The notes under the pieces were generated by a model. It was given only the letters and a program-made list of their open reading frames with translations, made no database searches and was not told where the DNA came from. DNA of 64,000 nucleotides from Bolinopsis microptera (lineage: Eukaryota > Ctenophora > Tentaculata > Lobata > Bolinopsidae). The stretch covers positions 16,377,962-16,441,961 of the forward strand of contig NC_087074.1 of assembly GCF_026151205.1 (NCBI RefSeq). The letters run 5' to 3'. Shown here piece after piece: positions 1,839 to 59,750 of this stretch. The translations under genes were made by a program, and so were the position numbers. The stretch's first letter is position 1; each line of letters starts with the position of its first letter.

Positions 1839-2045
1839 TCCTACGTCATACCTTGCCGTTGTTTCTGCTATCACAAACATTAACTATTTCTAATAACGAG
1901 GTGATGTTAGTAACGAGCTGCCTATATTGTTAGTTATATAGTATAATAACACGGGTTACACTAGTATAATATCTATAGCTTAGGATACGTATTAGTATGA
2001 GTATATTAGTGTAATATATAAGTGTATAAGTATAAGAGAAATCAT

Positions 2046-3463
2046 TTCCTTGTGAGCTAATTGTAACGTTAACAGTTGTTCCTTGTGAGCTTATTGTAAC
2101 GTTAACAGTTGTTCCTTGTGAGCTTATTGTAACGTTAACAGTTGTTCCTTGTGAGCTTATTGTAACGTTAACAGTTGTTTCTTGTGAGCTTATTGTAACG
2201 TTAACAGTTGTTCCTTGTGAGCTTATTGTAACGTTAACAGTTGTTCCTTGTGAGCTTATTGTAACGTTAACAGTTGTTCCTTGTGAGCTTATTGTAACGT
2301 TAACAGTTGTTCCTTGTGAGCTTATTGTAACGTTAACAGTTGTTCCTTGTGAGCTTATTGTAACGTTAACAGTTGTTCCTTGTGAGCTTATTGTAACGTT
2401 AACAGTTGTTCCTTGTGAGCTTATTGTAACGTTAACAGTTGTTCCTTGTGAGCTTATTGTAACGTTAACAGTTGTTCCTTGTGAGCTTATTGTAACGTTA
2501 ACAGTTGTTCCTTGTGAGCTTATTGTAACGTTAACAGTTGTTCCTTGTGAGCTTATTGTAACGTTAACAGTTGTTCCTTGTGAGCTTATTGTAACGTTAA
2601 CAGTTGTTCCTTGTGAGCTTATTGTAACGTTAACAGTTGTTCCTTGTGAGCTTATTGTAACGTTAACAGTTGTTCCTTGTGAGCTTATTGTAACGTTAAC
2701 AGTTGTTCCTTGTGAGCTTATTGTAACGTTAACAGTTGTTCCTTGTGAGCTTATTGTAACGTTAACAGTTGTTCCTTGTGAGCTTATTGTAACGTTAACA
2801 GTTGTTCCTTGTGAGCTTATTGTAACGTTAACAGTTGTTCCTTGTGAGCTTATTGTAACGTTAACAGTTGTTCCTTGTGAGCTTATTGTAACGTTAACAG
2901 TTGTTCCTTGTGAGCTTATTGTAACGTTAACAGTTGTTCCTTGTGAGCTTATTGTAACGTTAACAGTTGTTCCTTGTGAGCTTATTGTAACGTTAACAGT
3001 TGTTCCTTGTGAGCTTATTGTAACGTTAACAGTTGTTCCTTGTGAGCTTATTGTAACGTTAACAGTTGTTCCTTGTGAGCTTATTGTAACGTTAACAGTT
3101 GTTCCTTGTGAGCTTATTGTAACGTTAACAGTTGTTCCTTGTGAGCTTATTGTAACGTTAACAGTTGTTCCTTGTGAGCTTATTGTAACGTTAACAGTTG
3201 TTCCTTGTGAGCTTATTGTAACGTTAACAGTTGTTCCTTGTGAGCTTTTTGTAACGTTAACAGTTGTTCCTTGTGAGCTTATTGTAACGTTAACAGTTGT
3301 TCCTTGTGAGCTTATTGTAACGTTAACAGTTGTTCCTTGTGAGCTTATTGTAACGTTAACAGTTGTTCCTTGTGAGCTTATTGTAACGTTAACAGTTGTT
3401 CTTTGTGAGCTTATTGTAACGTTAACAGTTGTTCCTTGTGAGCTTATTGTAACGTTAACAGTT
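2046..3463. repeat. 33-bp tandem satellite, about 43 near-identical copies
   Basis: A 33-bp unit (TTCCTTGTGAGCTTATT followed by GTAACGTTAACAGTTG) repeats with almost no divergence; I saw only a few single-base variants, for example near 2176, 3247 and 3401. Each unit carries the palindrome GTTAAC inside AACGTTAAC. Such homogeneity over 1.4 kb points to recent amplification or ongoing homogenisation. Confidence 0.95.
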
Positions 3464-6399: not shown

Positions 6400-6917
6400 T
6401 TCTGACTGTTAACTAGCAACTGTTCTGACTGTTACCTAGCAACTGTTCTGACTGTTACCTAGCAACTGTTCTGACTGTTACCTAGCAACTGTTCTGACTG
6501 TTACCTAGCAACTGTTCTGACTGTTACCTAGCAACTGTTCTGACTGTTACCTAGCAACTGTTCTGACTGTTACCTAGCAACTGTTCTGACTGTTACCTAG
6601 CAACTGTTCTGACTGTTACCTAGCAACTGTTCTGACTGTTACCTAGCAACTGTTCTGACTGTTACCTAGCAACTGTTCTGACTGTTACCTAGGAACTGTT
6701 CTGACTGTTACCTAGGAACTGTTCTGACTGTTACCTAGCAACTGTTCTGACTGTTACCTAGCAACTGTTCTGACTGTTACCTAGCAACTGTTCTGACTGT
6801 TACCTAGTAACTGTTCTGACTGTTACCTAGCAACTGTTGTGACTGTTACCTAGCAACTGTTCTGACTGTTACCTAGCAACTGTTCTGACTGTTACCTAGC
6901 AACTGTTCTGACTGTTG
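6400..6917. repeat. 23-bp tandem satellite, about 22 copies
   Basis: The unit CTGACTGTTACCTAGCAACTGTT repeats with very few changes (GCAACT to GGAACT in two units, GTAACT in one). It starts about 50 bp after the end of the 20-bp array, so two unrelated minisatellites lie nearly back to back. Confidence 0.95.
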
Positions 6918-8696
6918 CCAGCAGGATGTTTATTTGAAAGCTTCTGAAACAATTCACTCGCTATTTATACCTCCTATTCATGGTTTAGTTCCTGCTCTGC
7001 TGGTGGTATACACTATACAGTAGATATATATATATATACATAATCTCTCTCATCCCAATCCTAAATAGCGCTACTACCCCCTACCTAGCAACTATTTCGC
7101 CGCCCTACTTTGCTTATCAAGTAGACAGGTATCTGACCTGTAAGCAGACCCTTTTGCATAACCCATCCCCCAGAGCTCTCTTAACAGGACCCAGTCATTG
7201 TTAAGACGAGTCTAGCAAACATTAAGGATAGCGTTTAAACCATTGTTAAGCAGGGAGACAGGTAGCAGCCCCTCTCAATCTGAATTTAGAGCAGCTCTCT
7301 GAATTACCCTGCTGCATATTTATACCAGCTCCAAGTTTAGGGACGCCTGGATCATTGGGACCGAGTCCAGGGAGGCGCAGGTGAGATGCCGCTAATCGTC
7401 CATTAGAGAGTCCTTTCTCTCCCTCCCCCTCTCTCTCTCTCTCTCTCTCTACCTTAGTATACTGTCACGTGACTAGCTACCGGGTCACGTGACTAGTTAC
7501 CGGGTCACCTGGTCTGAGGTGATGTTTTCTAAAGGCTGAGTTTTTACACTCACTCCGTTATAGCAGGGTGTAAGACAGCTCAGTACTGGCAGGAAGAGAG
7601 AGAGAGGGAGGGAGGGAGGATATATAGAGAGAGTGTGTGGAGAGTGGAGCTTGTGGTTAACGCTGAGATTGTATGAGTGAGGTGACAAATAAAGTGCAGC
7701 CCGTATAAAATCTAAAGATATTGCAATCTGATGATAACGGTTTCGATGGTGCCCTTTCCGCAGATTGGTCAACTAAAATGCCCGCGTCAATGGTGCAATG
7801 AACCTTACAGATAACCCAATTGATCCGATTTATATTCACATCAAAACAGTACGAAAATTAGTACGCATTATCCATCCTAATACTGCTGTTCTTTATTGAA
7901 ATATGACTCGACTTACTTCTTAACCTTTGTAGCGTCTGTCAGACTAAGATAATAAAAGCTAATAAAGGCTAATAAAGTAATAAGCCTAAGGTAATTCATT
8001 AAAGTTTATTCAAAATTTAATCATTAATTAGAATATGTCAGAAAATTAAACAAAGACAAAAATTTACAAGAACGATATTATTATTACAGCGTCAGTATAC
8101 TCGGTCTATTGATCTATAATAATAAGCTAGGTCTCCTCCCCTCGAGAGAGAGATGAAAAGCTCAAATGATAGAAACTTACGAACAATACGTTTCCCAGAC
8201 GATAACACAGTGCACAGTAACGTTGCGTTCACAGCAGCTGAGTATTGTGTAGTACACACGAAGAGACATTTTTCCATGTGGTTCTGTTACAGCCTGTCTA
8301 AAGCTTACAGTAGCGAGATGGAGTGAATTGTGAAGCTACAGCTGGGACATGTTAAAATATATACCAACTATTTAGAATAGTAAGCAGTACTCGACTGGGG
8401 TTCCGGCAAACATTGCACCCCCGGCCAAAATTCATTGATTAACCTCCGGCACCGGCCCCGGCTGAAATCTTAAATTGTCCTGAGAGTAAGCTGGTCCTTT
8501 TTTGAGAACTTTAGCACTGATTTTTCAGCTGGTATGTGCAAAAAACACGAATTTGTGGAATAAAAGTTACAATCTAGTATATGAATTGAGGCTCTGATGA
8601 CCATCCTCAGCGCACCCTCAGCAGCCTCAGCCCCGACAGAAGAAGGCACCCCGACCAAAATCTAACTCCCGGTTTCCACTGGTAGTGGTCAGCCCC
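6918..8696. other. Gene-free spacer with CT microsatellite
   Basis: No gene is recognised. There is a (CT)n run at about 7420-7450, a purine-rich GAGG run at 7595-7620, and a 21-bp duplication with two TCACGTGACTA motifs at about 7463-7505. Open frames of 60-90 codons resemble no known protein. Confidence 0.55.
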
Positions 8697-16131: not shown

Positions 16132-16568
16132 TGGCGGATCAGTCAGGGATATGCTACTGATGGATGAAAATCGCTAAAGCCCTTTCTTGAGGGGTTCACA
16201 CTATATTTCTGTGGGAGCGGCAAAATTGCACGTAAAATTTCAGGCTGAACCTTTTAACCTTAACCTAAGGGTTTCATTAGGTAAAACTCGCTCCTTTTCA
16301 GCAATATGACCATTTCGTGCATAGTTCTCAACAGTGGACCAATTTGGAGCCTGAAATACTGTTTGTCCAAATCAGTGATTATGAAATATTTGAACCTATC
16401 CAAAACCAAGCCTGGGTTTGCTTTAAATATAGTTATCCTGGTCCCAATTAATCCTCCTTGCGTCCTAACACGTAAGATGGCGTTTCTTTTGTCTCATATA
16501 TGATATTTATCTCGAAATACTGCTTTGTAACCTTTAAAAGTTTGTTATATTAATTATATACATAATTC

Positions 16569-16582
16569 AGCCAAGGAACGCA
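16569..16582 (+). promoter_or_regulatory. Splice-acceptor-like YAG before the PP1 start
   Basis: ATAATTCAG ends at 16570, followed by CCAAGGAACGCA and then ATG at 16583. The same YAG-CCAAG arrangement with the identical 12-nt spacer precedes PP2 (AG at 30699-30700) and PP3 (AG at 39940-39941), although PP2's upstream sequence is otherwise different. This suggests a 3' splice site, used either by a 5' UTR intron or by spliced-leader trans-splicing, which is known in ctenophores. Confidence 0.55.
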
Positions 16583-17203
16583 ATGCCTCTAGACGAGAAT
16601 AACAACGAGAGCTATAGATGGTTGAGAAGTGTGGGTAACGACTGGCAGTTTCATGTCGAGGATCTACACCCAAAACAGCTCAGCCGGCTGTACAAGAGGT
16701 TCGACACCTTCGATCTAGACAGTGACGGTCGTATGGACATGGACGAGGTCCTGTACTGGCCCGACAGAATGAGGCAGTTGGTGAACGCTACTGACGAACA
16801 GGTCGAGAAGATGAGGGCTGCTTGCTACACCTTCTTCCTCAACAAAGGAGTGGATCCAGAAAAGGGACTTCTCAGAGACGACTGGGTTGAAGCTAACAGG
16901 GTCTTTGCTGAGGCTGAGAGAGAGAGGGAACGACGTGGTGAACCCTCCTTGATTGGTCTTTTGTCAGACGCTTACTACGATGTCCTGGATGATGACGGTG
17001 ATGGTACTGTTGATGTTGATGAACTAAAGACCATGATGAAGGCTTTTGATGTGCCTCAGGAGGCTGCCTACACCTTCTTTGAGAAAGCTGACATTGACAA
17101 GAGTGGAAGACTGGAGCGAAACGAACTGATCCATCTCTTCAGAAAGTTCTGGATGGAGTCCTACGATCCTCAGTGGGACGGTGTCTACGCTTACAAATAC
17201 TAA
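16583..17203 (+). CDS. Ctenophore calcium-activated photoprotein, copy 1 (PP1)
   Basis: An intact single-exon gene of 206 residues. Family members bind coelenterazine and oxygen and emit blue light when calcium occupies their EF-hands, in photocytes. Three canonical 12-residue calcium loops are visible: DLDSDGRMDMDE (44-55), DDDGDGTVDVDE (136-147) and DIDKSGRLERNE (170-181). The second EF-hand position (about 88-105) lacks a canonical loop, as is usual for photoproteins. The Trp/Tyr/His-rich C-terminus (SYDPQWDGVYAYKY) is characteristic of mnemiopsin and berovin rather than the cnidarian aequorin tail. The start is the first ATG after the conserved YAG site and gives the family's usual length. 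PP1 is nearly identical to PP3 through the gene but its flanks match PP2, so it appears mosaic. No signal peptide. Confidence 0.95.
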   Translation: MPLDENNNESYRWLRSVGNDWQFHVEDLHPKQLSRLYKRFDTFDLDSDGRMDMDEVLYWPDRMRQLVNATDEQVEKMRAACYTFFLNKGVDPEKGLLRDDWVEANRVFAEAERERERRGEPSLIGLLSDAYYDVLDDDGDGTVDVDELKTMMKAFDVPQEAAYTFFEKADIDKSGRLERNELIHLFRKFWMESYDPQWDGVYAYKY

Positions 17204-18802: not shown

Positions 18803-20409
18803 AAAGGGCCGTATTTACCAACCTTTAGGTCATACTTAAACAGCAGTTTAAGGATGAGGTCGCACTTAAAAAGGAGTTTAAGTGGCAACTCTACAAATGG
18901 TATTCACGAAATTCTCTTTTAAGTGTCACCCTTAATTTTTAAGTGTCACACTTAAAATCCCTCAAAATTGGTATTTACCAAATCGAGTCATACTTAAGTT
19001 CGTACTTAAACTCACACTTAAAACGACTATTTTTAAGGTACACCTATGTCACCCTTAATCTACAGACCTCATACTTAAAGTTTAAAATCTGTTACATATG
19101 TAACAGTTATATTCTAAAATATATTATAGTTGGTTATGATTAGCGGTTATATTATAGCTGTCATATTAGAGCTAAACGTATTGATTTTGACTCATTTACA
19201 ATTAAGATCTCTACTCATTTAACGGTTAATTATGTACTTGCACCGTGTGAAAAACAATAAAAACACTAGCGTTTCAAGAGTAAAAATAGAGTAAATATTG
19301 AAGTGAAAGTAAAATATTCATAATAAAATCAGCTATGTTTTCACCCTCAAGCTCGGCGGGAAGGCCACCTGAAAATGGTAATCGGGATGAGGTTGGCACC
19401 AAATTGACTGTAAGGCCCTTCAAAATCTCCATCCACAGTTCATGCCTTTCTGACATCTGTATTTGCTGCGTGGTCAGCATCCCCATTCTCGCTTGATGTA
19501 TCTCTTCTGCCCGCTCCTGGTACGCCTCTTCTGTTGTTGTCCTCTTACAGTTAAACTTAAGGTGAGATGACGAGGCAGGAAAATTCTTTACCTGGTTCTT
19601 CACTCCCAACGAGGGTTTTTTCTTTGAGCTTGCTGAATGTCGCCACAAGAGATCTGCAAAGCCGTTGCGCCACAGAGAGCTGCTGTACCGGGCTCAATGG
19701 GGAATTGGTTTGTTTCCTGTACTGAGAAAGTAGGGGCTCTACGGCTTGGAGGATGAGAAGAAAACCTTCTATCTTGACTCGAAATCGGTAGTAAAAATCT
19801 ACGTCATCGTATGCCTCCAGTAGGTTAAATCGGTCTCTTAGGACAGGCCTGCGCTGAATAACTCTAGATTCTACCCGCTGCCGTTGTAGGTTTAACAAGT
19901 CGTCGTACTCAATACTCATTCATTATTCAAATTTACTAAAGTTTAATCAGGAGCAAACAAATCAGACAAACGGATTTCGATCAGAAACATATTACAGCAA
20001 CTCGCAAACATTGGTTTACCTCCTGATAGCTTTGTGCTAACAGCTCTCCTGATAATTAGTAAAATTTGTTAATCTTGCTCTCTATTTAATCTCTCAGCAG
20101 TCTATTTTCCCCTAATTACCTCCTGATACTCATCATGTTCTTATACAATACATTACAATACATCTAATTCTGCACTTAAAGTGTCAGTTCAGTGATAAAA
20201 TTTTGGTGAATAACAATTTTAGTTAAAGGTTGACCTCCCACTTAGAGCATAAGTGGGAGGTCAACCTATAAATTAAAGTACGAGCTATTTCCAGTTGGTA
20301 AATACGAATTTCGATTAAGGTCCAACTTTTTAAGTGTCACTTTAACGTGATACTTAAAATTCTTCCTTTAAGGTCGTACTTTAAGCAAATTTGGTAAATA
20401 CGGCCCAAA
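18803..20409 (-). mobile_element. PIF/Harbinger-type deletion derivative, 1601 bp
   Basis: Terminal inverted repeats GGGCCGTATTTACCAA lie at 18806 and (inverted) at 20406, flanked by a 3-bp AAA duplication (18803-18805 and 20407-20409). GGGCC-type ends and 3-bp duplications are typical of PIF/Harbinger. It splits the Helitron helicase between the codons for NTL and SPSG. Many subterminal ACTTAAA/AAGTGTCAC motifs lie within about 250 bp of each end. Internal coding remnants support the superfamily call. Confidence 0.9.
19274..19919 (-). pseudogene. Harbinger transposase and accessory-protein remnants
   Basis: The frame at 19919-19557 encodes RFRVKIEGFLLILQAVEPLL and SPVQQLSVAQRLCRSL, the N-terminal pattern of HARBI1-like transposases ahead of the catalytic domain. 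The DDE core is absent. The overlapping frame at 19648-19274 encodes EEAYQERAEEIHQARM and a following helix, resembling the C-terminal part of the Myb/SANT-like accessory protein of these elements; this second assignment is weaker. An internal deletion seems to have joined the two genes near 19556. Confidence 0.6.
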
Positions 20410-23400
20410 GTGTTCAGATACTCTTGTGGAATGTCAAAGCTGTCTTCGGAGCTCACTTTGTCGTGGGACTTGTAGAGTCTCTCTTCGCCCGGAAACGTCG
20501 CCATGACTTTGTTGTTAATCAAGTCAACAGTTTTGTTTGTAGGGCAGATCAGGCTTCTACTTGCAGTCCAGCTGTGATCTGTATACTGAGTTTCAAGGTC
20601 TTCGAACACCCAGTTAATAAGAGCATCTAAGTCACCCTTGAAGATCAACTCATCCGGGATTGTTACCCTGAACTGGCCACCTTGAGGATGAATTGGAAGC
20701 AGGCCATCACCGCAAGATAAAAGATAATCAGTAAATTCTTTGTCTTCGCTGTTCTGGAAAACACGCATGTTAATGTCAAGTTTGAAAACGGTTGCATGTT
20801 TCCACAGATAAGAACTCTTGAGACATGAATTCACTATCTGTCCTCGGCTTCCTTTCACTACAACAGGGAGGCTCTGTCTCCAATCAGTAGCCCACACCAT
20901 TGTTATCCCACCAAACAGTTTGTTGTTTCCTCTGACAAACTGAAGTGATCTGTCAAGTGTCTCGAAGATCATTTTGTTACCCATGCTTACTTCATCAATA
21001 ATAAGTACAGCTGTTTCTTGTAACAACTTGCCAGTAGCGTCCCGTTTTGAAAAGTTGGCCATAGAATCTTCAGTCAGCTTAAGCGGAATTTTACAACGAC
21101 TGTGCAGAGTTCGGCCGTTGTTTAGCAGAGTGGCTGCTATCCCTGAAAGTGCAGTTGCCAGGGCTATCTTTCCTTGAGCTCGAACACTGTCGAGGATAAG
21201 GTTGATGGTGTATGTTTTACCCGTACCACCGGATGCCTGAAGTGCAAAAACCTTGCCAGAGTTGTTAGCAACAGAATCCATAACAGCAGAGTAAAATAGA
21301 TGCTGCTTATTATTGAGTGACTCTACACGCCCTTGTAAGGATTGAGCAAGAGCCTCTCGATCATAAGATGTTTCATCCCTGACAACCCTTGGTACGTTAG
21401 ACCTTGGCAAAAGGTCTTCCCTCACAGCGGGAAGAAGGAAATCTTTCACTAAGTCTAATTCATCCTGTTCGAATCTTTCTTTCAGATAGAGGAGCGCTTG
21501 GTTGAACATAAGCTCAGTTGGAGCTTCAGCATTTTCAGCTCTCATAAAGTCCTCAACCAACTTCTCGCGATGGCGTTGCCAAAATAGGGGAGGGTCTGCT
21601 GGCCGACAGTAGATAAGGAGATTCGCAAAAACGTCCCTAAGTTGATTGCCAAACTGTACTGTGCTTGCCTCCTCCATCACACAGTCCAACTCTTCATCTG
21701 TTTCCAGCAGCCCAAGTTTACGGCAAGCTTCTTGAAAGGTTGGACAAACGTGGCCATTTATCGTTCTCAAGTTTTCAAAAGAAGTTGCCCCAGATTTGTT
21801 GTAGAGCAACATTCTTAAGAAGAAGAGTTCAGATTGCTTAGCATTGCAGGAAAAGACTGGAATACGTCCAACAGTAACTCCAGTTTTTCTCTTCCGCCAG
21901 CGTTTGTCCTTCTCAATCCAAGTGTATTTGTCTGGGAAGTCTGGATAGAGTACTTCCCTGGCCTCTGGATCCTCTGCGTTCTGATTGAAATATGCCAAAA
22001 GTTTTGTAACACGTGGACCACGGTTTATGGCTTCCTCTTCCTCACCTTCAGCAAACAACTGCATCTGCTCCCCCTTCAGATGACAGTCAAGTTTCATTAC
22101 TGCTGGACTTCTATGAAAGAGGTCAAACCCATAGAGTCTCCAGTAAGCCTCGGAAGCTGAGAGGTAACGGGCGTTGGAATAGGTCTCAACTTCATCCTCT
22201 TGCTCAAATGCCGCAACTACTCGGTCTGGACCCTTGTTTATGTATTTGAACAGGTATTTCACACACCTCGTTGAATATACTACTTCCACGTTTATATGCG
22301 CCTCGTAAATTAACGATAAAAGTGGACTATAAGGTACAACCCAAGAATTGTCCAGCAGGAAGAAGTTCGGATTGCTTTCGCTTCCCATATTCACCCTATG
22401 AACTTGTCCTCCATCTTCTGGTGATCGACGACGATAAACAGGAGGGCTGTGTTGGGTTAGCATTGTATCTGCTGACAGATTCTTCGGGAATTTCTTGGAG
22501 CATTTCTTATCAGCACCTTCACCAACCATACACGGTGAGTTCCTGTTAATGTTTCCGCAAGGTCCATGTATATTGTTGGTGGTTATAATCTTGTGCAGCC
22601 GAGGGTTAGTCAGGGGATCTGGAATCTCTGCGCAAACTATCTTATCAACATCCTCTGGTGTGCGAGGTTTGTACTCATCTGTGAGAATTACAACAATGTG
22701 AATATGAGGCAATCCCCTTTTCTGAAATTCTACTGTGGCAGTATAGCCCCGTATATCTCCAAAAACTTTGTTTAAGCAAATGTCTTTGAGTAAAGCATTC
22801 AATTTCAATTTGAAAACTCTAGCACAAAGATCTGGCCGATCAGTGTATGATTCTCCTGGATCCAATGCTTCCTGTATTTCTTTCCACTTTGGGTTACAGG
22901 TAAACGTTACAAACAGATCTGGCTTCCCTAACTTTCTAACAATACCCATTGAGTCTTGGAATCGTTCTCGATAGTACCTTGGCGAACCGTAGAAAGAAGG
23001 AGGTAATATAATGCGCTTTCCTGCATTGTTCAGATCATTGTCCGCCTGAGCGTCTATGAGCCCATTATATTTTTCTGCCTTGATTGTTTTCTGGTTATGC
23101 CGTACCCAATCTAAGCGGCTACCTTCAATCTTAGCCCACATATCGCACACAAACTGCTGCGTCAAACGTCTGTATTTCATTACTGAGTTCCAGTCGTCCC
23201 TAACCTGCATCCGATAGCAGTAAAAATCAGAAGCCGTTAAAGTCCTATTGTCAGATCTTTTCATGCCCAACTGAAAGCCGTCATCACCTTTTGGAAACAT
23301 AATAACATAATGTAATGGATCGTATGACCGATGAACTGGACTGATCCTTCTTACCGCACCTCCCCTCTCGTGCAAAATAACATCCATGTTCGCAGTGATT

Positions 23401-25019
23401 TCCCCCGGCAAAAGTACACCAACTTCTGAAGCTGTTGGCAGGTTGTATGTTCGTGCGTGGGCATCAGATGGCCGTCGTCGTTCATCGGCATGCAAAACTA
23501 ATTTAACATCAGGTGAAATGCGCATTAGTTCCAGTCCAGACTTCAATGAGCAGATGTACGGATTGCAATCATGTAATGTATTTTGAATAATCTCAACTGT
23601 CTGCTGATCCAGAGAGCTCATGATTTCCATCCTGTTTCCAGTTTCGTGGTCAGTATCGTGGAAATACAGTTGAGCAAATTTCGGGCTTTCACCATCTTGT
23701 GGCAATAAGCTGCCAATTCTGTGGTACATTTTGCCGCGAACGGTAAATGTCGGGCTGAACCCCTGATGTTTGATTTCTTGCCCACAACCGAGTGATGCTA
23801 AAGCAAAAAGATTATTGTATGCTCGAGCATTTTTGAGGAAATGGGATCCGTTAACATCGAATAATAACTGAATCTGTTCTGGAATTGGTGGTAAGCGTGG
23901 CAATTTCACTTTGCCTCCGCTGCAACATGTGTTCTTGTTTTCATTGTTCCAGAAGTATGCATTACAGTGGTTGCATGTAAAATCCCTGATCGACCCTTCA
24001 AAGGTGTTACAAAACTCCTCCGGTAGTTCTGTTTCGTCGAACTCGTCGACAGGTATTTTTGAAGCTAGATTGAACCAAGCTCTCCCAGTTCGCCCTCTAA
24101 ACTGCATTCTGTTCAGTCCTCTTGTGGCGTGTGACGGATACCCCGGCCCCCGACGTTGGCGTCTTCGTCCTCTTGTTCCCCTGGACCGCAGGTTTCTCGA
24201 TAAGTTTCTCGGGGTTCTAGATGGGCTTGGACTCCGTTTGGATTTTCGACCAAACCCACCTCTCGTTCTCTGGCGACCTAAAATTTGAATAGTTTTAAAA
24301 TTTTCGTATTTGAAATGACTATTTACATATTTGCAGCATGCATCAAAAATAAACTATGTTTTAATGACAATCAAGTATTAGTAAATAAATTCGTAAAATG
24401 ACCTCTTAAAGCATTCGGGGATCTATCAACTGCAACTGGGACATCTCGTCGACAACGTTTTGAAGGGTGCTTACTGTTATCACTACTATCATCAGAGAGA
24501 AGTAGATTAGTAGTTTCACTGTCATCTGAAATAATTATCTCTAATAATTTACGTATTATCAAATGATAATTTCAATCCTAATTTATAGTAACCTGCAAGT
24601 ATATCGTTTACATTACACAGTATTACAGACCTGCTATAGAATTCGGGCGTTCTTGCTGAGCAGGATGATCAACATTTAAAGTAAGATCCACTGATTGTTC
24701 AATAACGTTGCTTCTCCGAATTCGTTTGCAGGAAGGCTCACAATTTTCCGCTGAAGGAAAACCCGTTACAGGCTACGTTAAATAAATTATGGCTAATGCC
24801 TTCCTTAGTTTCTTAAATTTTGAAAATATTGAATATGTTATGTACTATATATTATATAATTGAGACTAACGTGAAACTGTAAGCTGCTCCGGGAATGCTG
24901 GACCAGGTTGTTGACTGTCGTGGAAACTGTTAGCGGTACCCATTCTCCTGACATGATCGCGGTTGTCTGAATACAGACACAACCTATCGAGTCGGTCTTC
25001 GAAAGACTCGTTAGCAAGT

Positions 25020-30470: not shown

Positions 30471-30712
30471 TTTCTGTGGGAGCGGCAAAATTGCACGTAA
30501 AATTTCAGGCTGAACCTTTTAACTGAACCTTTTAAACTTAACTTAAGGGTTTCATTAGGGAAAACTCGCCCCATTTTAGCAATATGACCATTTCATGCAT
30601 AGTTTTCAACAGTGGACCAATTTGGAGCCTGAAATACTGTTTTTCCAAATACTGTTTAAGTTTTTATACCCTTAAAATTTATAATTTGATTATCATTTAG
30701 CCAAGAACTGCT

Positions 30713-31333
30713 ATGCCTCTAGACGAGAACAACAACGAGAGCTATAGATGGCTGAGAAGTGTGGGTAACGATTGGCAGTTTGATATCGAGGATCTACACC
30801 CAAAGCAGATAACCCGTCTCTACAAGAGGTTCGACACCTTCGATCTAGACAGTGACGGTCGTATGGACATGGACGAGATCCTGTACTGGCCCGACAGAAT
30901 GAGACAGCTGGTGAACGCTACTGACGAACAGGTCGACAACATGAGGGCTGCGTGCTACACTTTCTTCCTCAACAAAGGAGTGGATCCAGTTAACGGGTTA
31001 CTTAGGGAGAACTGGGTTGAGTCTAACAGAGTCTTTGCTGAGGCTGAAAGAGAGAGGGAACGACGTGGTGAACCCTCCTTGATTGGTCTTTTGTCAGACG
31101 CTTACTACGATGTCCTGGATGATGACGGTGATGGTACTGTTGATGTTGATGAACTAAAGACCATGATGAAGGCTTTTGATGTGCCTCAGGAGGCTGCCTA
31201 CACCTTCTTTGAGAAAGCTGACACGGACAAGAGTGGAAAACTGGAGCGAAACGAACTGATCCATCTCTTCAGAAAGTTCTGGATGGAGTCCTACGATCCT
31301 CAGTGGGACGGTGTCTACGCTTACAAATACTAA
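30713..31333 (+). CDS. Ctenophore calcium-activated photoprotein, copy 2 (PP2)
   Basis: Intact, intronless, 206 residues. Same role as PP1: a coelenterazine-binding, calcium-triggered light emitter. EF-hand loops are at 44-55 (DLDSDGRMDMDE), 136-147 (DDDGDGTVDVDE) and 170-181 (DTDKSGKLERNE). It differs from PP1 at about a dozen sites, mostly in the N-terminal half: QFDIEDLHPKQITRL for QFHVEDLHPKQLSRL, DEILYW for DEVLYW, VDNMR for VEKMR, VNGLLRENWVESNR for EKGLLRDDWVEANR. All are conservative and none touches calcium-coordinating loop positions, so a functional paralogue is likely. The ATG follows TTTAG-CCAAGAACTGCT. An AATAAA lies about 190 nt after the stop codon (near 31520). Confidence 0.95.
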   Translation: MPLDENNNESYRWLRSVGNDWQFDIEDLHPKQITRLYKRFDTFDLDSDGRMDMDEILYWPDRMRQLVNATDEQVDNMRAACYTFFLNKGVDPVNGLLRENWVESNRVFAEAERERERRGEPSLIGLLSDAYYDVLDDDGDGTVDVDELKTMMKAFDVPQEAAYTFFEKADTDKSGKLERNELIHLFRKFWMESYDPQWDGVYAYKY

Positions 31334-39370: not shown

Positions 39371-39953
39371 TTGTAAAGCTGTTAAATAAAGGTCAGGCTT
39401 CCGTAGCACTCTTCTATAAAATGGCATTCCTTACGATTTGTGCATTGAATAAAATCCATTATGTATGATTTCAATGGGAATTTTTATGTAAACTAAGCCA
39501 GTGTTTATAATTATAAATGGTGTATTGGGGAATTACAACAGGTTCTCCCGGCACATACCACGTGGCAGACGATGGAACAGTAATCTTCTTTTCTCGTATC
39601 ATTCTTTGGCGTGCGTGTGGTTGTTCACATATTACGTAATCACTTTGGGGCAATTTTAAAGCCCCCTCCGTTATCTGTTTTACACATAGCTATTGCATTA
39701 AAATTACACTAACGTAATCATTTAGAAACCCCCCCCCCCCTCTCACTTCTCAGTGATTATGAAATATTTGAACCTATCCAAAACCAAGCCTGGGTTTGCT
39801 TTAAATATAGTTATCCTGGTCCCAATTAAACCTTCTTGCGTCCTAAGATGGCGTTTCTTTCGTCTCACATATGATATTTATCCCGTAATACTGCTTTGTA
39901 ACCTTTAAAAGTTTGTTATATTAATTATATACATAATTCAGCCAAGGCACGCA

Positions 39954-40576
39954 ATGCCTCTAGACGAGACCAACAACGAGAGCTATAGATGGTTGAGAAG
40001 TGTGGGTAACGACTGGCAGTTTCATGTCGAGGATCTACACCCAAAACAGCTCAGCCGGCTCTACAAGAGGTTCGACACCTTCGATCTAGACAGTGACGGT
40101 CGTATGGACATGGAAGAGGTCCTGTACTGGCCCGACAGAATGAGGCAGTTGGTGAACGCTACTGACGAACAGGTCGAGAAGATGAGGGCTGCTTGCTACA
40201 CCTTCTTCCTCAACAAAGGAGTGGATCCAGAAAAGGGACTTCTCAGAGACGACTGGGTTGAAGCTAACAGGGTCTTTGCTGAGGCTGAGAGAGAGAGAGG
40301 GAACGACGTGGTGAACCCTCCTTGATTGGTCTTTTGTCAGACGCTTACTACGATGTCCTGGATGATGACGGTGATGGTACTGTTGATGTTGATGAACTAA
40401 AGACCATGATGAAGGCTTTTGATGTGCCTCAGGAGGCTGCCTACACCTTCTTTGATAAAGCTGACATTGACAAGAGTGGAAGACTGGAGCGAAACGAACT
40501 GGTGCATCTCTTCAGAAAGTTCTGGATGGAGTCCTACGATCCTCAGTGGGACGGTGTCTACGCTTACAAATACTAA
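39954..40576 (+). pseudogene. Photoprotein copy 3 (PP3), frameshifted
   Basis: Homologous to PP1 over the full 206 codons and nearly identical to it. A GA run at about 40288-40300 has one extra GA compared with PP1 and PP2, so translation leaves frame after AEAERER and stops at 40323-40325, giving 123 residues with only EF-hand 1. The second part (40322-40576) is still intact and encodes EF-hands 3 and 4. Minor changes: DETNNES for DENNNES, MEEVLYW for MDEVLYW, DKAD for EKAD, ELVHLF for ELIHLF. Because the lesion is a 2-bp change in a microsatellite, it may be a recent allele or an assembly error rather than an old pseudogene. Confidence 0.9.
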
Positions 40577-49743: not shown

Positions 49744-50740
49744 TCATTTATCCTTCTTATTTTCCGCAGCAGTATTAGTTACAGTAGTAGAGTATTTCCT
49801 CTTCTTCTTAAAAACCTTATCGATCTTCCTCTGGGTTTCAGTTTTTTTCTTATCAAATTTTCTCTGAGTTTCAGTATATTTGACCATCTGCCGGCTCCTA
49901 CGCTCGTTCCTCTTAGCCACGCCTCTTCTTATAGCCTTCACTGCGGGCTCCAGGTCGATCTCATCGTACTTCTTATCAAATCGTTCTATCCTCTGCTCAA
50001 TCCTAGCTAGAGTCACCTCATCCACCGCGGTTTCAGGTTGCATAACACCCATGTACCGGAGATTCCTAACCACCACAGGGACCATGATGGAGTCCAGTAC
50101 TAGTCGGAGGGGTGAGGTGAGCTTGTAGAGCAGCACTGCTATTATACCACTGGTGGCATTAGAGGACGTGGGAGAGAGGATGTCAGACTTGTCGTACCCT
50201 GCTTTAGCTAGGATGTTGTCCACGTTTATGTAGTTCTCCGCGAATGACAGCATCGCTGACACGTCGAAATCTCTGAAGTAGAAAAATTATGTTATCTCCT
50301 AGAATTTGATAACAAACGGAAGTTTGAGAAAACAGTAGTAGAAAATTGATTTAATAAAAACAAAATGGATATTATTGGGAAGCTTCTAGAGAGACAAACC
50401 TGGAGACAAGTAGATAAAACATGGCGAACGTCACAATGGAGGTGCACGTGTGGAACACGAAAAATACCGGCCCATACTCTTTCAGAAGCTTAACGATCAA
50501 TCGACCTCTTTTCTTAGGAGGTGCGGGCGGTGAGGGATTAGAATAGTGTCTACTCAAAACAAGATGCCTTTGAAACACATCAGATTTATTAAAGTTCGTT
50601 ATGTGTGGACGGGTTGATGCTGCAGAAAGACATGCTGATTGGAGAGTGACGATTGGCGATCTGAAAGTGGTTCTAGTGACAGAGTGGAGGCATGTTGGGC
50701 GTATAGCTGAGCTCTGAAAGAGAATTCTGAGGGATAACAT
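49744..50740 (-). CDS. FAM210-like (DUF1279) mitochondrial membrane protein
   Basis: Two coding exons, 50740-50400 and 50272-49744, joined at AG|GT and CAG|A with the frame intact (870 nt, 289 residues). The first ~50 residues lack acidic residues and are rich in Ser, Thr and Arg, as in a mitochondrial presequence. The DUF1279 core follows: LIVKLLKEYGPVFFVFHTCT with the first membrane segment (about 81-113), then a second hydrophobic stretch (SGIIAVLLYKLTSPLRLVL and VPVVVRN). The C-terminal ~90 residues are a Lys/Arg/Glu-rich helix with repeated TETQRKxDKK. FAM210A/B proteins sit in the inner mitochondrial membrane and are linked to mitochondrial translation or metabolism; which paralogue this is cannot be decided here. 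Confidence 0.85.
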
Positions 50741-50946
50741 CTCTAGTTTTCATGTCATAGCCATTTCGTCACTGCTGGATCGGAGGGTGAAAATAGTGTT
50801 GGATACAAAATTAACTGTAAATCGGATAAATGTATAATAGCCCAAATATATCCTAGTAAAACTCGATGACGTGGAAATTTATAGTCAAAAATCTTCAAGC
50901 AATGTTACAGTTTTATTGCTAGTTTTATGCTCTGCCTGAAAAACCA

Positions 50947-53798
50947 GTTAAGGACACGTTCATTGAAGTTTGAGGAAATTGGTAAATTTCTAAAACAGCG
51001 TTTTTGACGATAGTGGTTTAATTTTAACATATATTAATCTAGCGTGTTCATAAGTTCTGAACATTAGCCACGTGACCCATACTCCCATATGCACTGCTCA
51101 AAAATAAAATGTATTGCTTTTAGGCACTATTATGTAAAAAATGTCACATTTTTGTGACATTGTTTACCATAGCTGCCCAATTAGCATTTTTTGGTCTAAA
51201 ATATAGTAGATTAGGTCAATCTAACAATTATGATACAATGTAGGCCTAAAGGGCAGTGATCGAACGGCTTTAAGGCAACATTTTGTAAACTTTGTCACAC
51301 TCAGAATACGAGACCTCTTTTCTACTGTGAGGTGTCCATAAAACCCTTTCAACTCATTATTTGATAGTTCTTCTGCCAATCATAGCCCTAAAATATGTTG
51401 TTTTGAAAAGTTAACTTGAAATACATGCACTTGGCTATTGGGAAATGATGTAAATTCTGTCACATTATATGGAATTTGAAATTCTGGGTGAATTTCCGAA
51501 ATCATTTATATCTGATTTTGGTTTGGAAGGCGGGAAAACTCTATATATGAGGACGTAACACGGATACAGTTAATTGAAGTATAGCCCGGCAGTTGATGTA
51601 AACATCGTCACAAAATGATACGAAATCGTAAATGGACACGTTCATGTTGAAGTTTAAGGATATTGGTAAACCAAAAAAAATTGCGTGTTCAGAAGTTCTG
51701 TACATTAGCCACGTGACCCATACTTCCATATACACGGCTCAGAAATACAATTTATGGTTTTTAGGCACTATAATGTAAAAAATGTCACATTTTTGTGACT
51801 GTGTTAACCATAGCAGCCCAATTAGCATTTTTTGGTTTAAAATATAGTAGATTAGGTCATTCTAACAATTATGATACAACATTTGGCTAAAGGGCAGGGA
51901 TCGAACGGTTTTAAGGCAATATTTCGTAAACTTTGTCACACTCAGAATACGATACCTCTTTTCTACTGTGAGGTGTCCTCAAAACCCTTTCAACTCATTA
52001 TTTGATAGTTTTTCTACTAATCATAGCCCTAAAATATGTTGTTTTGAAAAGTTAGCAAATACATGCACTTATTGGGAAATGATGTAAATTCTGTCACATT
52101 ATATTGAATTTAAAATTTTGGGTGAATTGCCGAAATCATTTATATCTGATTTTGGTTTGGAAGGCGGGAAAATTGTATATAAGGACGATGCACGGATAGA
52201 GCTGATTCAAGTTAAGGGCAGTTGATGTAAAAATTGTCACAATAATAAAAAGGGCAGTTGATATGAAAGAAAATCTATCTAACTAATGCAATGGCTGATG
52301 TGACGAAATTTACATTTCTTGACCCTATTTTGAAGAAACATGCCTCGATTAGAATTCAATATTCTTCCAGGAATTATTAGTAGGTTATTATTCAGCAGAT
52401 CATCAGAACTCAAGTTTGACAATTCTGAGTTTAATTATACGAAGTTACCGAAATGTGACGAAATTCACTTTTCCTGCCCCAAAAGTATAATTTCAATGTG
52501 ATGAAAAATGGGCATGGGTTTCTGTATTTCCTTTGTCTCTGAATTAATCATTTCAAACTATAATTAGGACTGTTGATGTGAAAGAAAATGTATCTAAATT
52601 TTACAATGACGTATGTGACGAAATTTACATTTCTTGACCCTATTTTGAAGAACCATACCCCGATTAGAATTCAATATTCTTCCAGGAATTATTGGTAGGT
52701 TATTTTTCAGCAAATCAGAACCCAAGTTTAACAATGCTGAGTTTGATATCACTAATTTACCGAAATGTGACGAAATTTACTTTTCCTGCCCCAACAGTAT
52801 AATTTCAATGTGATGAAAAATGGGCATGGGTTTCTATATTTCCTGTATAAATCCATTCCAACTATAATAAGGGCAGTTGATATGAAAGAAAATCTATCTA
52901 ACTAATGCAATGGCTGATGTGACGAAATTTACATTTCTTGCCCCTATTTTGAAGAATCATACCTCAATTAGTATATAATGTTACTTTATCACCATCACTA
53001 TGTCGATAAATTAGTTATTTTGCAAACACGGAGCAAATAAAGTTATAATATTTTTTTTGTGACGAAATTTACAAATTTTTACCCTGTTCAGGTGTTGAAA
53101 TTTATCCAATGTTAACATATCACTGCCATATAATAATTTATATGACCGGCGTATGGTTGAAATATTGTTAATTGATCCATAGTACGTAATATAGGGTGTT
53201 TAAGTTGGTATACTAATATTTACTCAATTTCGCACATGTTGAGATATCATACAAATTTATGTGACTAAATTTACCTATTTCTGCCTTCTGTATTTGTATT
53301 TGCGTATAACAATGAAATATGTGAACAATTCCAAACACATTCAGCTCACAAAATAATGCTAGACTATTCGGTATTTCTTGTCAGGATGTCATAAACATCC
53401 CTCATATAAATTTCTTAAATGTGTGACGGAGTTTACATGGTGCTACCATTTAAGGAAAAAAGTCGCTACATATGTAGATAATAGCCATATACAGCTATTC
53501 TATGAATTGGAAATTCGAAAATTTGGTCAAACACGGCAACAAGGGGTCCATATAAACTCCGTCACGTTTTTATAGTGTGACAAAGTTTACAACTCACTGC
53601 CGGCCGCATTTAAGCGATATCTTATCGTCTGATAAAGATATCGTTATGCGACAAAGTTTATCTAGAGGATGAAACGATTATCTTAGGGTTAGAGGGTTTA
53701 TATAGTTTCATAGTGTGACACATTTTAAATCATCGTGCCATTCAGTAGGGTCACTAATATTTACCAATATCCTCAAACTTCAATGAACGTGTCCTTAA
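50947..53798. mobile_element. 2.84-kb TTAA-flanked non-autonomous element with periodic motif
   Basis: Inverted termini GGACACGTTCATTGAAGTTT (start 50951) and its reverse complement (end 53794) extend about 37 bp. TTAA flanks both ends (50947-50950, 53795-53798). The left end is duplicated internally at 51634, giving a 683-bp tandem repeat. A ~310-bp unit repeats at about 52260, 52570 and 52870. About 20 copies of GTGACGAAATTTAC or its relatives recur every ~150 bp, inverted in the left half and direct in the right half. No protein is encoded. It lies between the FAM210-like gene and CCT5. Confidence 0.85.
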
Positions 53799-54894: not shown

Positions 54895-56514
54895 TTATTC
54901 TCCCTCTCCAGGACTCCGTACATCGTCGATCTTGAGAATCATTCTTACAAGCTGTGTGGCTAACATTATCTGTTGCTTCTTACCGATCAGAGTCTCAATG
55001 ACATGCTGCACCTTCATGTCATTCTCTCCGGCGTCCATGCAGTCGATACCAAGACGAGGATTATCTTCTTTGATCTGTCGAGATTTTACTTCAGCGAGTG
55101 TAGCGAAAGGAGCTAATCCTGAGTTCTCTGCAAGGGCCATGGGAACTGATTCCAGAGCATCTGCAAACGCTCTCATAGCGTACTGCTCAATACTGGGAAC
55201 CTTGTCGGCGGCAGCACTGACAGCAATAGCACAGGAGATTTCATTGGAACCACCTCCATATACGATACGGTTATCACGCACCAGATTTCTGATTACACAC
55301 ATAGCATCCCAAATACTGCGCTTAGCTTCCTGGACTATCATGGTGTTGGAGCCTCTCAGGAAGAGGGTAACTGCTCGGGTGTTCTTGCAATCTTCTATCA
55401 CCATCATTCTGTCTTTGGTAGTTCCGAACTCGATCTCTCTTACTTTTCCAGCATAGCCCAGTTTATCAGGTGTCAGCTCACTGAATCTTGGTACAATACG
55501 TCCGCCGGTTGCAATAGCAATGAGTTCTATCTCAGGACCTCCCACCCAACGTACTGCGGGTAGCTCGTTCTGTAGACACAGATGGTTTGCTTCGTCATCA
55601 AATCCCCACTGGCAGATAGCAAGGTTAGCTCCGCTATCTTTAATCTTCTTAATCATGTCAATAAACTGCTCCTTTTCGTACGCGTGAAGTTTGTTGTAAT
55701 CTTCTACTGAGCCTACGTTCAGGTTGTGCTTGGTTTTGGGCTTTGGGGGCTCGAAGGCACAGGTTAGGATAGCCATCTTGACATCGTTCAACTCCTTTGG
55801 CATCTGGCTGTGACTCATGGTCTTGTCAATAATGACTCCTTTAACCAACTGAGAATCCTCCAACTTACCGCCAGTCTTACATTCGATCTTAATCAAGTCA
55901 AATGACACGTCTTTTCTCTCCAGATCTGCAACAGAGAGGATAGCATCAACAGCCATCTCAGCGAACTTCCTTCCACATCTGTTCACAATCTTGGATCCGA
56001 GTGTGGTCATGGCGGTCTTGACAAGTGGCTCCTTGTTATCTTTATCTACTATGAATGTGTCTGTAATGGTATTCATGTGCTCAATAGCAATCTGTGCAGC
56101 ATTCTCGTAACCGTCAGCAACTCTGATAGGATGTATTCCTCGCTCCAGTAGGATCTCTGCCTGCTCCAGGAGTGCACCAGCCAACACTACTACTCCCGTA
56201 GTACCATCTCCAATCTCATCATCTTGAGATTTAGACAACTGTACCATGAGTTTAGCGATCTGATGTTCCACATCCATCTTCTCCAGGATTGTAGCTCCGT
56301 CGTTGGTGACGGTGATGTCTCCATCTGATGACACTAGAATCTTGTCCAGACCTTTGGGTCCAAGAGAGGAGCGCAGACACTGAGCAACTGATCTGGCGGC
56401 CATGATGTGGGACTTTTGAGCGTCAAGTCCGGACATACGGGACTTTGTACTTTGGTCCTTGAGGATGATGAAGGGTTGACCATATTCGTCAAATGCGATT
56501 TGTCCGCCTTGCAT
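54895..56514 (-). CDS. CCT5: Chaperonin TRiC/CCT subunit epsilon
   Basis: A single-exon gene of 539 residues, the normal length for CCT subunits. CCT5 is one of eight different subunits of the cytosolic double-ring chaperonin that folds actin, tubulin and other proteins using ATP. Epsilon identity rests on the N-terminus ([15 protein letters not shown]), [13 protein letters not shown] and the C-terminus [15 protein letters not shown]-site motifs: LGPKG (51-55), NDGATI (71-76), GDGTTG (102-107), and VYGGGSNEI near 410. The ATG lies 12 nt after TTATTATAG, a strong 3' splice-site candidate, so a 5' UTR intron or trans-splicing is likely. It lies 400 bp downstream of the CCT8 stop codon on the same strand. 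Confidence 0.97.
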
Positions 56515-56914
56515 GTTGTTGAGTAGCTATAATAAGATAAAGTTAGCATTGGTAACAGCAAATCAGAATAAATATGTATATTCATGAATAATTTCAAGTA
56601 GGAATAACGATCAGTGCAGTAGACTGACGAATTGTTTGGAATTTCAAGATGCAGGTTAGCCCAGAATTAACAACATGTCACAACATTCAGACAGACATTA
56701 CTGATAATACTGAGGATAATATTAGAAATCTTTGTGGTCCTGTAAGCCTGACATATTGTTAAATCTGGTTCACCCTTTGTTAATTAAAATAGCAATAAGA
56801 GACAATACTCAGTGAAGTAGAATGGCATCATCTTAGATACAAAATAAAAATAAATATGAGCTCATTATATTATACAAATACAAAATCAGATAAACGTCCT
56901 TCAACTCCAGCGCT

Positions 56915-59410
56915 CTATTCGTCGTCAGGGTCTGCCTGTCCTTTGCGAGGTTTAGGTCCGCCGGCTTGTTTAGCCATGATTATCTGATCCACAACTAACA
57001 CTGTGCAAGCTGCGTTCACTGCAAACTTGATACCCCAGTGCTTTGTGAGGTAAATGTCGAATACTTTCCTCTCGACAACATCCATTACTTCGCAGTGATC
57101 GGACTGAAGTCATTGATAATTATTAACTTTACTGTTTATCAAACTCTTTGAATGAGCTTAATTACGGTATCTAAAGAACAGCAATGTACTATAGAGTCAA
57201 AAGCAGTGTAATTTTAGTAAATGAGAAATGACTAATATTTTAAAATAAAGGAAGATATTTACCTCGAGGTTGATGCCGGCGTTCATGCCAGACACCTTGT
57301 CCTGATGAGCGTTGTACATGTTAGCAAGTACCTCGTTACCTCTGAGTCCTGTGTTCTCTGCGAGGATTTTGGGGAATACTTCGAAAGCTTCAGCAAACTT
57401 CTTGATTGCGTACTGCTCCATACCGGGGGTCTGAAATAATGATTATAATAATTTATGAATTAAAATTGCTCGGTAATTATAAAGTTATAAATTTAAGTAT
57501 GCCAAAGTCAAAAATAGTATTTAAGAAATTGAAGTCGGGGTTATTTGTAAAAACGAGCTAAAACCATAGGATGAGAACGGACCTGTTCACCGAAAGTCAT
57601 AAGCTGTTTGGCGAGCTCGATCTCAGTTGCGCCAGCGCCAGGGAGACAGCGCTGATCACGTGTCAACACCTTCACGCTGTTCACACCGTCATCTATTGCT
57701 CGCTCGATATCGTCCATGATGTTATCTGTGCTTCCTCGGATGATGATGGTGGACATGGCTGATTCTTCTCGATCTGAAGAGACCTTGTTAGAAATAACTT
57801 TAATGAGATAAACATTTAGCAGAACTTATGTAAACATTAAAATATGGAGAATAGCATCATGTTCACGAGAAGCTGTATCGAAATGACTGCTAACCTTGTC
57901 TGAAAGATACTACAACAGTATCTCCGACCTCCTCGAGCGCGACCATGCTGCAGAACCCAATCTCTTCGTTAGTGGGAGGGGTCATGTTAGGGAGAGCGGT
58001 AGCGTTGATGCTCTTACACAATCTCCTCAGGTCCCACTTGGACATGAGTCTGACGACCATGATACCGAACTTGTTAGCGAAGTGGAGCATCATATCGCCC
58101 ACTTTACCACCGCTTACCACGCACGTGATCCCCAGATCTGCAAGGGCTTTAACTGAGTTCTCTATCAGTTTCTCCTCGTCCACACTAAAGTTCTTCAGTT
58201 CCTCAGCTGTCTTGATCAGGACTGTTCCTTTGGTTTCAGTGGTACCGATATCAAACGGACAGGAGTACACTGCGATTTTAGCGCCTTTTACGGAGGTGAT
58301 GTCACTTTCAACGTTGCGTTTGAAGATCATGCCTTGCAGACATGTTGAGGATAACACTCCAGATCCCAGAATCTTGCACGATCTCACGTGATCAACGTTG
58401 AATGTCCTCTGTGTTGGCATTATCTTACTACAAGCATCAGAGATAAGCTCAGCGAGGAAATCTTCATAACCGTCCTGCTTGCTGCCGACAGCGGTTTTGA
58501 CAATGGGGATAACAGCTTCCTTGTTCTTTACATCCTTCACTGTGTGGCATACCAGGGTTTCTAGGATAATCAGGCACTGCTCTGCTGCCATCTCGTAGCC
58601 TTTGATCACTTCGCTGGGCGACAATCCACATTCCAACAGATCAATCGCTTTCTCCAACAGAGAACCTGACAGGATATAGATTATATTAAAGTTGTTCTGT
58701 GTTCAAGATGGTAAATTCAGTTTATCTATTTATCAGCGGTGCTAAAATCAAACTCCGAAATCCAAGTAGAAATCCGTTACCAGTAAAAATGTTTAAACCA
58801 AAAAATATCAATACTGTTAATGGTGCAAAACTATCAAGCCAATAGCTTCCATAAAATAGAAAAACACGAATACCCTTATAAAACATGACACGATCAGCAC
58901 ATATTATAACTTATACCCAGTAAACATTGAACATCACAATTGTTTAAAATAAAACCAGAAAAAAAGAGCTCAGAACTAACCAGCAAGGATCATAACAAAG
59001 TTGGTTCCGTCACCACATTCTGCTTCCTGCTGTTGTGAAGCCTGCACAATCATTTTAGCAGCAGGGTGCTGCACTTCCAGTTCCTTTATGATAGTTGCTG
59101 CATCGTTTGTAACAAACAACTTGCTCAGATGGTTGATAACCATCTTGTTGAGCCCCTTTGGTCCGTAACAGGTCTTGATTGTCTTGTAGAGCTCTGTACA
59201 GGCCTCAAGATTTGAGAAAACAGCCTCGTGCATTCCAGAGAGATGCTGAAATGGGGGAACTTTTATTTCGAATAGAAAATATTTGTGATCGCTGATACTG
59301 ATAGACGAGAAGTAATTAAATTGCGAAAACTCCAGATTAATATTTTTACAAACCTTGGTCCCTTCTTTCATCATGTTCTGAAAGTACGATTTGGGTACGT
59401 GCATCGCCAT
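56915..59410 (-). CDS. CCT8: Chaperonin TRiC/CCT subunit theta
   Basis: Six exons with GT/AG borders and continuous frame: 59410-59354, 59245-58981, 58665-57895, 57773-57583, 57430-57263, 57103-56915 (1641 nt, 546 residues). Theta identity: start MAMHVPKSYF, NDAATII (66 onward), and GDGTNFV (97 onward), where theta has Asn in place of the usual Thr; also RGSTDNIMDDIERAIDDGVN, TPGMEQYAIKKFAEAFEV, and the tail VDQIIMAKQAGGPKPRKG. It forms the cytosolic folding chaperonin with CCT5, which lies directly downstream. The last bases before the ATG are CACTCAAG, again an AG immediately upstream of the start. Confidence 0.95.
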
Positions 59411-59750
59411 CTTGAGTGTGTGGACTAGAGCTAGAGCTATCGTAAAAGTGGGGTTAAATAAGGTGAATTGAGCTATACAATCTTATAATATTGTATTTTT
59501 ACCTGTAAATGGTCATCAGTGATAAAATTTAACACTCAGGTAGGTTATAAAATACTGCGTGGAGTAATCTCATCTCACAAAATAGTCAACTCTACATCAC
59601 AATTTTAGCGTTTGATATCATAAAATGGGTTGAAAATAAATTATGGAAACATAAAAGAAATTATTGTAAGAAACAACCCGGTTAAAACATCACGAAATAT
59701 TACCTAAACTACGACTAACCATTAAAAAGAAAAGGCTGGAAAAAAAACCT

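Follow-up and report, generated by a model that had tools for sequence, protein, structure and literature searches.

A ctenophore TIR transposon family whose non-coding interior carries a mirrored array of putative docking sites

The window, a 64,000-nucleotide stretch of the Bolinopsis microptera genome (contig NC_087074.1), holds at 50948–53798 one copy of a non-coding DNA transposon family with terminal inverted repeats (TIRs), including the 4-bp repeats that flank it. On its 5' side lies a minus-strand FAM210-like gene (ORF 49744–50286, with a Pfam match below the cut-off), beside a further ORF of that strand (50372–50749). Its neighbor on the other side is a TCP-1 chaperonin gene (54895–56526, an uninterrupted frame of 543 aa), which is adjoined by another TCP-1 gene at 57890–59482 in at least two pieces. 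The two ends of the element (50948–50987 and 53759–53798) are 98% complementary over 40 nt with the TTAA counted in. This 40-bp end pair is the longest inverted match in the element, and the remaining inverted matches are centered on the repeated site described below. The element is AT-rich, with a GC content of 33% versus 38.8% for the whole window. The claim that it encodes nothing holds: the longest stop-to-stop ORF overlapping it is 70 aa, and no known RNA family in Rfam matched within it at the gathering threshold.

A short motif recurs throughout the interior. The sequence GTGACNNNNTTTAC occurs 17 times exactly in the 2,851-bp element versus 0 times in 60 dinucleotide shuffles, and 21 times when up to one mismatch is allowed (shuffle mean 0.12, maximum 1). 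The full 14-mer at up to three mismatches matches the window 26 times, 18 of them within the element (chance mean 7.2; maximum in 100 shuffles 13). The original prediction described about 20 copies of a 14-bp motif spaced 140–160 bp apart, with an orientation flip in mid-element. The counts and the spacing of about 150 bp agree with that description, and the positions it gave are correct to a few bases. Inverted partners aside, the flip consists of a single strand switch between 52240 and 52300. Newly recognized here are the minus-strand site at 51134, the partners at 51154 (+), 51795 (+) and 53552 (−), and the outermost site on the right at 53715 (+). Inverted site pairs thus lie close to both element ends, at 51134/51154 and 53552/53577 (Table 1).

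Table 1. Features of the window copy, in order of position.
Feature	Position	Strand	Remark
Left target-site duplication, TTAA in window copy	50948–50951		Family: WTAW, ATAT commonest
Left TIR, starts GGACACGTTCATTGAAG	50952–50987	+	98% complementary to right end; 548 ends genome-wide
Left-half block, first copy	51042–51341	+	Repeat family D1, 90% identical to 51683–51982
Site La	51134–51147	−	Inverted pair with 51154–51167 (+)
Inverted partner of La	51154–51167	+
Site Lb	51285–51298	−
Site Lc	51450–51463	−
Site Ld	51598–51611	−
Left-half block, second copy	51683–51982	+	D1; preceded by internal TIR-sequence copy at 51631–51670 (D9/I6)
Site La, second unit	51775–51788	−	Inverted partner 51795–51808 (+), 1 mismatch
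Site Lb, second unit	51926–51939	−
Site Lc, second unit	52084–52097	−
Site Ld, second unit	52227–52240	−	Final minus site ahead of flip
315-bp unit, 2.4 tandem copies	52245–52971	+	Two sites (Ra, Rb) per unit
Site Ra	52300–52313	+	First plus site past flip
Site Rb	52455–52468	+	1 mismatch
Site Ra, second copy	52615–52628	+
Site Rb, second copy	52767–52780	+
Site Ra, third copy	52919–52932	+
Site Rc	53059–53072	+
Site Rd	53261–53274	+
Site Re	53423–53436	+
Inverted partner of Rf	53552–53565	−	1 mismatch
Site Rf	53577–53590	+
Site Rg, outermost on right	53715–53728	+	1 mismatch; TTTAA in window copy, TTTAC in several others
Right TIR	53759–53794	−	Complementarity to left end
Right target-site duplication, TTAA	53795–53798

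Grouping the sites by position within duplicated units yielded ten classes with unalike flanks that have TGTGAC-N4-TTTAC-N9-CC in common, a signal of about 26 bp whose blocks TGTGAC, TTTAC and CC are spaced roughly 10–11 bp apart. Minus-strand sites fill the left half and plus-strand sites the right half, so the CC end of the signal points toward the nearest terminus. Flank identity between classes over 70 bp was 0.29 and 0.30 versus 0.28 expected, with the single exception of the pair Rb–Rc, whose 5' flanks are similar above shuffles. Conservation of the core is in part a selection effect, because sites were chosen by that core; T(−1) and C(+23), neither of which was used in site choice, are each kept in 12 of 13 classes, and the position after C(+23) is C in 10 of 13. 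The signal shared by ten classes at background flank similarity, together with these two positions, supports the mirrored binding-site array originally proposed, and the sequence comparison indicates that the site is conserved and is more than a by-product of tandem duplication. The finding named in advance as fatal to that proposal, spacing explained by plain tandem duplication with the 14-mer no better conserved than the rest of the monomer, is not what these classes display.

Comparison among copies of the family points the same way with weaker P values, and we regard the between-class comparison as the stronger evidence. When 34 left and 32 right segments were aligned, shared variants fell in 1 of 130 motif-block columns versus 48 of 982 elsewhere (uncorrected P = 0.036), and singletons numbered 12 per 130 versus 180 per 982 (uncorrected P = 0.024). 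Spacer columns resembled the rest of the alignment, with 7 of 120 informative. Low variation in the TIRs is biased in these alignments, because many copies were found via an exact end. The site itself is absent from the TIR, where the best score was −7, whereas genuine sites score 19–33 (P = 0.04 for the terminal placement).

The signal appears to be nearly private to the family. Genome-wide, TGTGACN4TTTACN9CC has 2,605 exact matches (1,285 forward and 1,320 reverse) versus 17 for the reversed control (11 + 6). The first 100 signal matches listed all come from contig C1: 98 of them belong to clusters of at least three, one is solitary, and one is separated from a listed family end by about 550 bp. 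Three of the clusters (7, 10 and 3 sites) have no end among the exact ends listed, and their family membership is by site sequence alone. No stand-alone site array was found among these 100 matches.

The pitch of the array is unusually even. Over eight gaps in the window copy, hand-picked as independent of recent duplications, the coefficient of variation is 0.11, and 0 of 200,000 random placements were as even. Between neighboring same-strand sites in 36 copies, including the window copy (n = 498), the median gap is 152 bp (5th percentile 118 bp, 95th percentile 203 bp); a few of these gaps span inserted elements. The gaps are not multiples of the helical turn, and we found no helical phasing among them (R = 0.16). 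Two levels of internal duplication are superimposed on this pitch: the left half contains a pair of similar blocks offset from each other by about 640 bp, and part of the right half consists of 315-bp tandem units. By sequence, these duplications multiply some sites, and the distinct site classes are not accounted for by them. The suggestion that a tandem monomer became the interior of a transposon is partly right: the two duplication levels and the likeness of the Rb and Rc flanks favor it, and duplication alone leaves the conserved signal without an account.

The original prediction called for a genome search with the terminus. Run as the 24-bp end at up to three mismatches, this search found 548 occurrences in the 264.7-Mb genome (276 forward, 272 reverse) and 0 for the reversed control, establishing a multi-copy family present at a few hundred loci. 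The element itself has at least 191 genome matches (40 of 1,044 candidates scored), and eleven other copies match the window copy near full length at 96–98% identity. Copies fall into size classes by number of interior repeats: the window type of about 2.8 kb, a form of about 3.1 kb with extra 315-bp units, and type C copies of 2.2–2.7 kb with sites about 111 bp apart. Inspected by eye for a coding remnant, the central part of type C revealed nothing recognizable. Array-length variants from 2.0 to 4.9 kb occur without other inserts. One copy of about 4.85 kb (L048, G000:C7:1916630-1921520) is array throughout, with 33 sites at up to one mismatch, and another (L055, G000:C5:16861220-16870620) has a 5.3-kb array core flanked by two inserts. 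An informal five-bin tally over 11 chromosomes gave no common pattern of crowding in one chromosome region.

Array-stripped forms are rare, because among 99 facing pairs of ends just 1 is shorter than 2 kb (66 are 2.2–3.2 kb). A 635-bp pair (L017) has three sites only and matching target-site duplications (TSDs), and may have shrunk after insertion. The scarcity of pairs below 2 kb is in line with a requirement for the array, but it could likewise stem from drift and recent ancestry.

The TSD is a 4-bp WTAW sequence, mostly ATAT, with TTAA a minority in the family. Flanking 4-mers are equal in 25 of 27 copies with both ends read by eye; eight of these copies came from a DNA search and most others from a list in which copies closest to the TTAA form came first, an order that disfavors ATAT. 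Among facing pairs of the ends listed, 95 of 99 have agreeing 4-mers versus 41% by chance. The agreeing pairs comprise at least 57 with ATAT, 33 with TTAT or ATAA and 5 with TTAA, in a sample drawn from WTAW patterns in which ATAT is undercounted relative to the others. Exact ends divide similarly by flanking 4-mer: ATAT 189, TTAT 62 and ATAA 41 (counted with 26-mers), and TTAA 22 (with the 24-mer). The label "TTAA element" was thus misplaced, although TTAA does flank the window copy. Inverted termini and a TSD at many dispersed loci place the family among TIR (class II) DNA transposons. Sleeping Beauty and Bari duplicate TA, a target other than WTAW. The TSD of Sola2 is reported as AWWT in the excerpted text of PMC3627910; ATAT fits this pattern, and the 38 of 95 pairs with TTAT, ATAA or TTAA do not.

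We looked for an autonomous partner among exact-end TIR pairs of at least 3.6 kb, reading 19 of the 24, and recognized no transposase copy in them. Most of the 19 contain other elements inserted into the array. Pfam matched reverse transcriptase in seven (L014, L039, L040, L041, L046, L047 and L051) and an endonuclease domain in the insert of L043. The inserts of ten more (L013, L016, L042, L044, L045, L050, L052, L053, L054 and L055) have no above-cut-off Pfam match or ORFs that are too short; a decayed transposase is possible in these ten, and the L013 insert has inverted ends of its own. A diverged end with identical first 11 bp had a single genome match, a decayed copy of the family.

Combining these observations, we propose that the element is a non-autonomous TIR transposon of a young family, and that its interior consists of putative docking sites for a transposase that would be provided in trans, a reading we consider somewhat better than even. 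Given a spacing of about one helical turn between its three blocks, the site would be bound on one face of the helix by a sequence-specific protein, most likely the transposase of an autonomous partner or an accessory DNA-binding domain of it. Besides binding the ends, the transposase would dock at many places in the interior, which would make it easier to locate the two termini of a long non-coding element and bring them together. As the TIRs have no match to the site, the ends would need to be recognized differently by the same domain. With many docking sites, each copy would concentrate transposase locally and have its ends recognized more specifically, which would offset the cost of a 2–5-kb non-coding load. 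Unequal exchange would lengthen and shorten the array, with the sites themselves kept. A broader version of this proposal, which we advance tentatively and think rather unlikely as a whole, is a chromatin-scale transposon: a mirror-symmetric, outward ladder with about one putative transposase-docking site per nucleosome length, in which selection keeps sites and pitch, spacers drift, and ladder-less copies hardly spread.

The main alternative to transposase docking is a host factor. A transcription, chromatin or boundary protein might bind the sites, with a pitch of about 150 bp giving roughly one site per nucleosome core and aiding openness or the avoidance of silencing. The pitch is indeed near 147 bp, as the median over 36 copies attests, and the 10-bp AA/TT/TA periodicity shows a weak excess (1.98 versus 1.29 ± 0.30 in shuffles; a value this high came up in 4 of 200). 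However, another stretch of the window reaches 1.93, internal duplications inflate the measure, and type C copies keep a spacing of about 111 bp. A host factor would also be expected to have other targets, whereas the signal is hardly present outside the family, and nucleosome phasing has no need of an orientation that mirrors the termini. On balance we doubt the host-factor reading. We are more skeptical still that the array is a passive, old satellite-like tandem repeat caught between TIRs, its layout due to duplication and inversion and its motif simply the slowest-decaying part. The true duplications of about 640 and 315 bp, the array-length variants, the residual similarity of the Rb and Rc 5' flanks, and the oyster elements with satellite monomers inside described in the available portion of PMC8268682 all speak for such an origin. 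Against it, the site is intact while class flanks stand at background identity, when without constraint the site would decay too, and the first 100 signal matches listed include no array standing alone.

Two further readings concern the partner. A TTAA-specific piggyBac-type element would account for the TTAA at the window copy, and the genome has 26 piggyBac-type transposase matches. However, TTAA is outnumbered among agreeing pairs as given above, and the piggyBac-type locus that we checked ends in CCCTAATGGG-TTAA, unlike GGACACG. We rejected this origin, which is highly improbable, and with it the suggested link to a piggyBac-like transposase. That locus (L009) and three others (L010–L012) have open frames of 678–681 aa and are about 97% identical pairwise to L009; offset self-matches suggest a tandem repeat of about 39 bp outside the transposase match. 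A non-autonomous member of the Kolobok superfamily with a relaxed target and a THAP-transposase partner, which would name the partner within the docking proposal, is also rather improbable, though less so than the host factor. Kolobok elements, in the part of PMC9587614 available, have 5'-RR...YY-3' termini and a TTAA-specific 4-bp TSD. The GG...CC termini of the array family fit the former, and its TSD, other than TTAA in 90 of 95 agreeing pairs, departs from the latter.

The genome also has THAP-domain proteins. One intact element with a THAP and a Mutator-like transposase domain has a 796-aa ORF and two copies (L056, L057) 99.6% identical over 4.2 kb, and was recently active. Its end, AGGACCAGTTAACTGAAA, agrees with GGACACGTTCATTGAAG at 12 of the 17 positions that begin with GGAC (P = 0.0002 by shuffling), in a comparison that covered two THAP-element ends and used an alignment point of our choice. 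The boundary is shifted by one base, TTAA-A-GGAC in the THAP element versus WTAW-GGAC in the array element. The left end of a second THAP-transposase family (L058/L059, copies 97% identical), TTAA-AGGTGCACACC, is unlike that of the array element, and the THAP loci that we read contain no array site. We take the likeness of ends as a lead toward Kolobok, not a test. A copy sharing the L056/L057 end is nested in L055 at 6478–8520, flanked by TTAA duplications.

Repetitive transposon arms with more than one transposase site are already known, and the original view that no described element has such a plan was too strong. In Galileo, a P-superfamily element of Drosophila, the THAP domain of the transposase binds several sites in internally repetitive arms, located at distances of about 70, 561–577 and 701–718 bp from the terminus, with roughly 140 bp between the second and the third (PMC3688188, in excerpt). 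The array family likewise has several putative sites in repetitive transposon DNA. Unlike Galileo as described there, it has a 4-bp WTAW TSD and sites throughout the whole element. Galileo arms are long inverted repeats, whereas about 40 bp are inverted here, and what the two halves have in common is the site with its direction; the long, internally repetitive inverted arms of Foldback/Galileo-like elements are absent. According to the same excerpt, secondary transposase sites in Sleeping Beauty and Bari are set back from the ends within longer, bipartite TIRs, while about twenty putative sites fill the interior of the array element rather than its TIRs. Like the Foldback-like Tetris elements of the accessible text of PMC4079207, the array family is apparently non-autonomous and modular, contains internal tandem repeats and exists in many rearrangements. 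Tetris TIRs, however, carry repeats of about 220 bp and have seeded satellites, whereas the repeats of the array family lie outside inverted arms and its first 100 listed signal matches include no stand-alone array. Helitron-associated satellites of oysters, in the available portion of PMC8268682, also form short tandem arrays in mobile elements; the array family differs from them in its TIRs and TSDs and in that its monomers are dissimilar except for one conserved site. The open-access papers that we consulted, some of them in part, describe no element filled end to end by one conserved site with unalike spacers, mirrored and at near-nucleosome pitch.

It is usually difficult to tell whether the internal repeats of a transposon serve a function or are passive, since they resemble each other over their full length. 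In the array family the units no longer resemble one another apart from a shared site of about 26 bp, which makes function arguable from sequence. Should the array prove necessary, it would illustrate how an element without coding capacity can reach a large size and spread nonetheless.

Other features of the window include three similar EF-hand protein ORFs at 16538–17203 (with a Pfam match), 30701–31333 and 39909–40325, the last of which is shorter and has a frame change. A Helitron at 20337–24353 has an almost intact helicase frame of 1,338 aa. At 1930–3580 lies a coding-like minisatellite whose unit reads TTVNVTISSQG on one strand and which can be read in either direction for about 510 aa without a stop.
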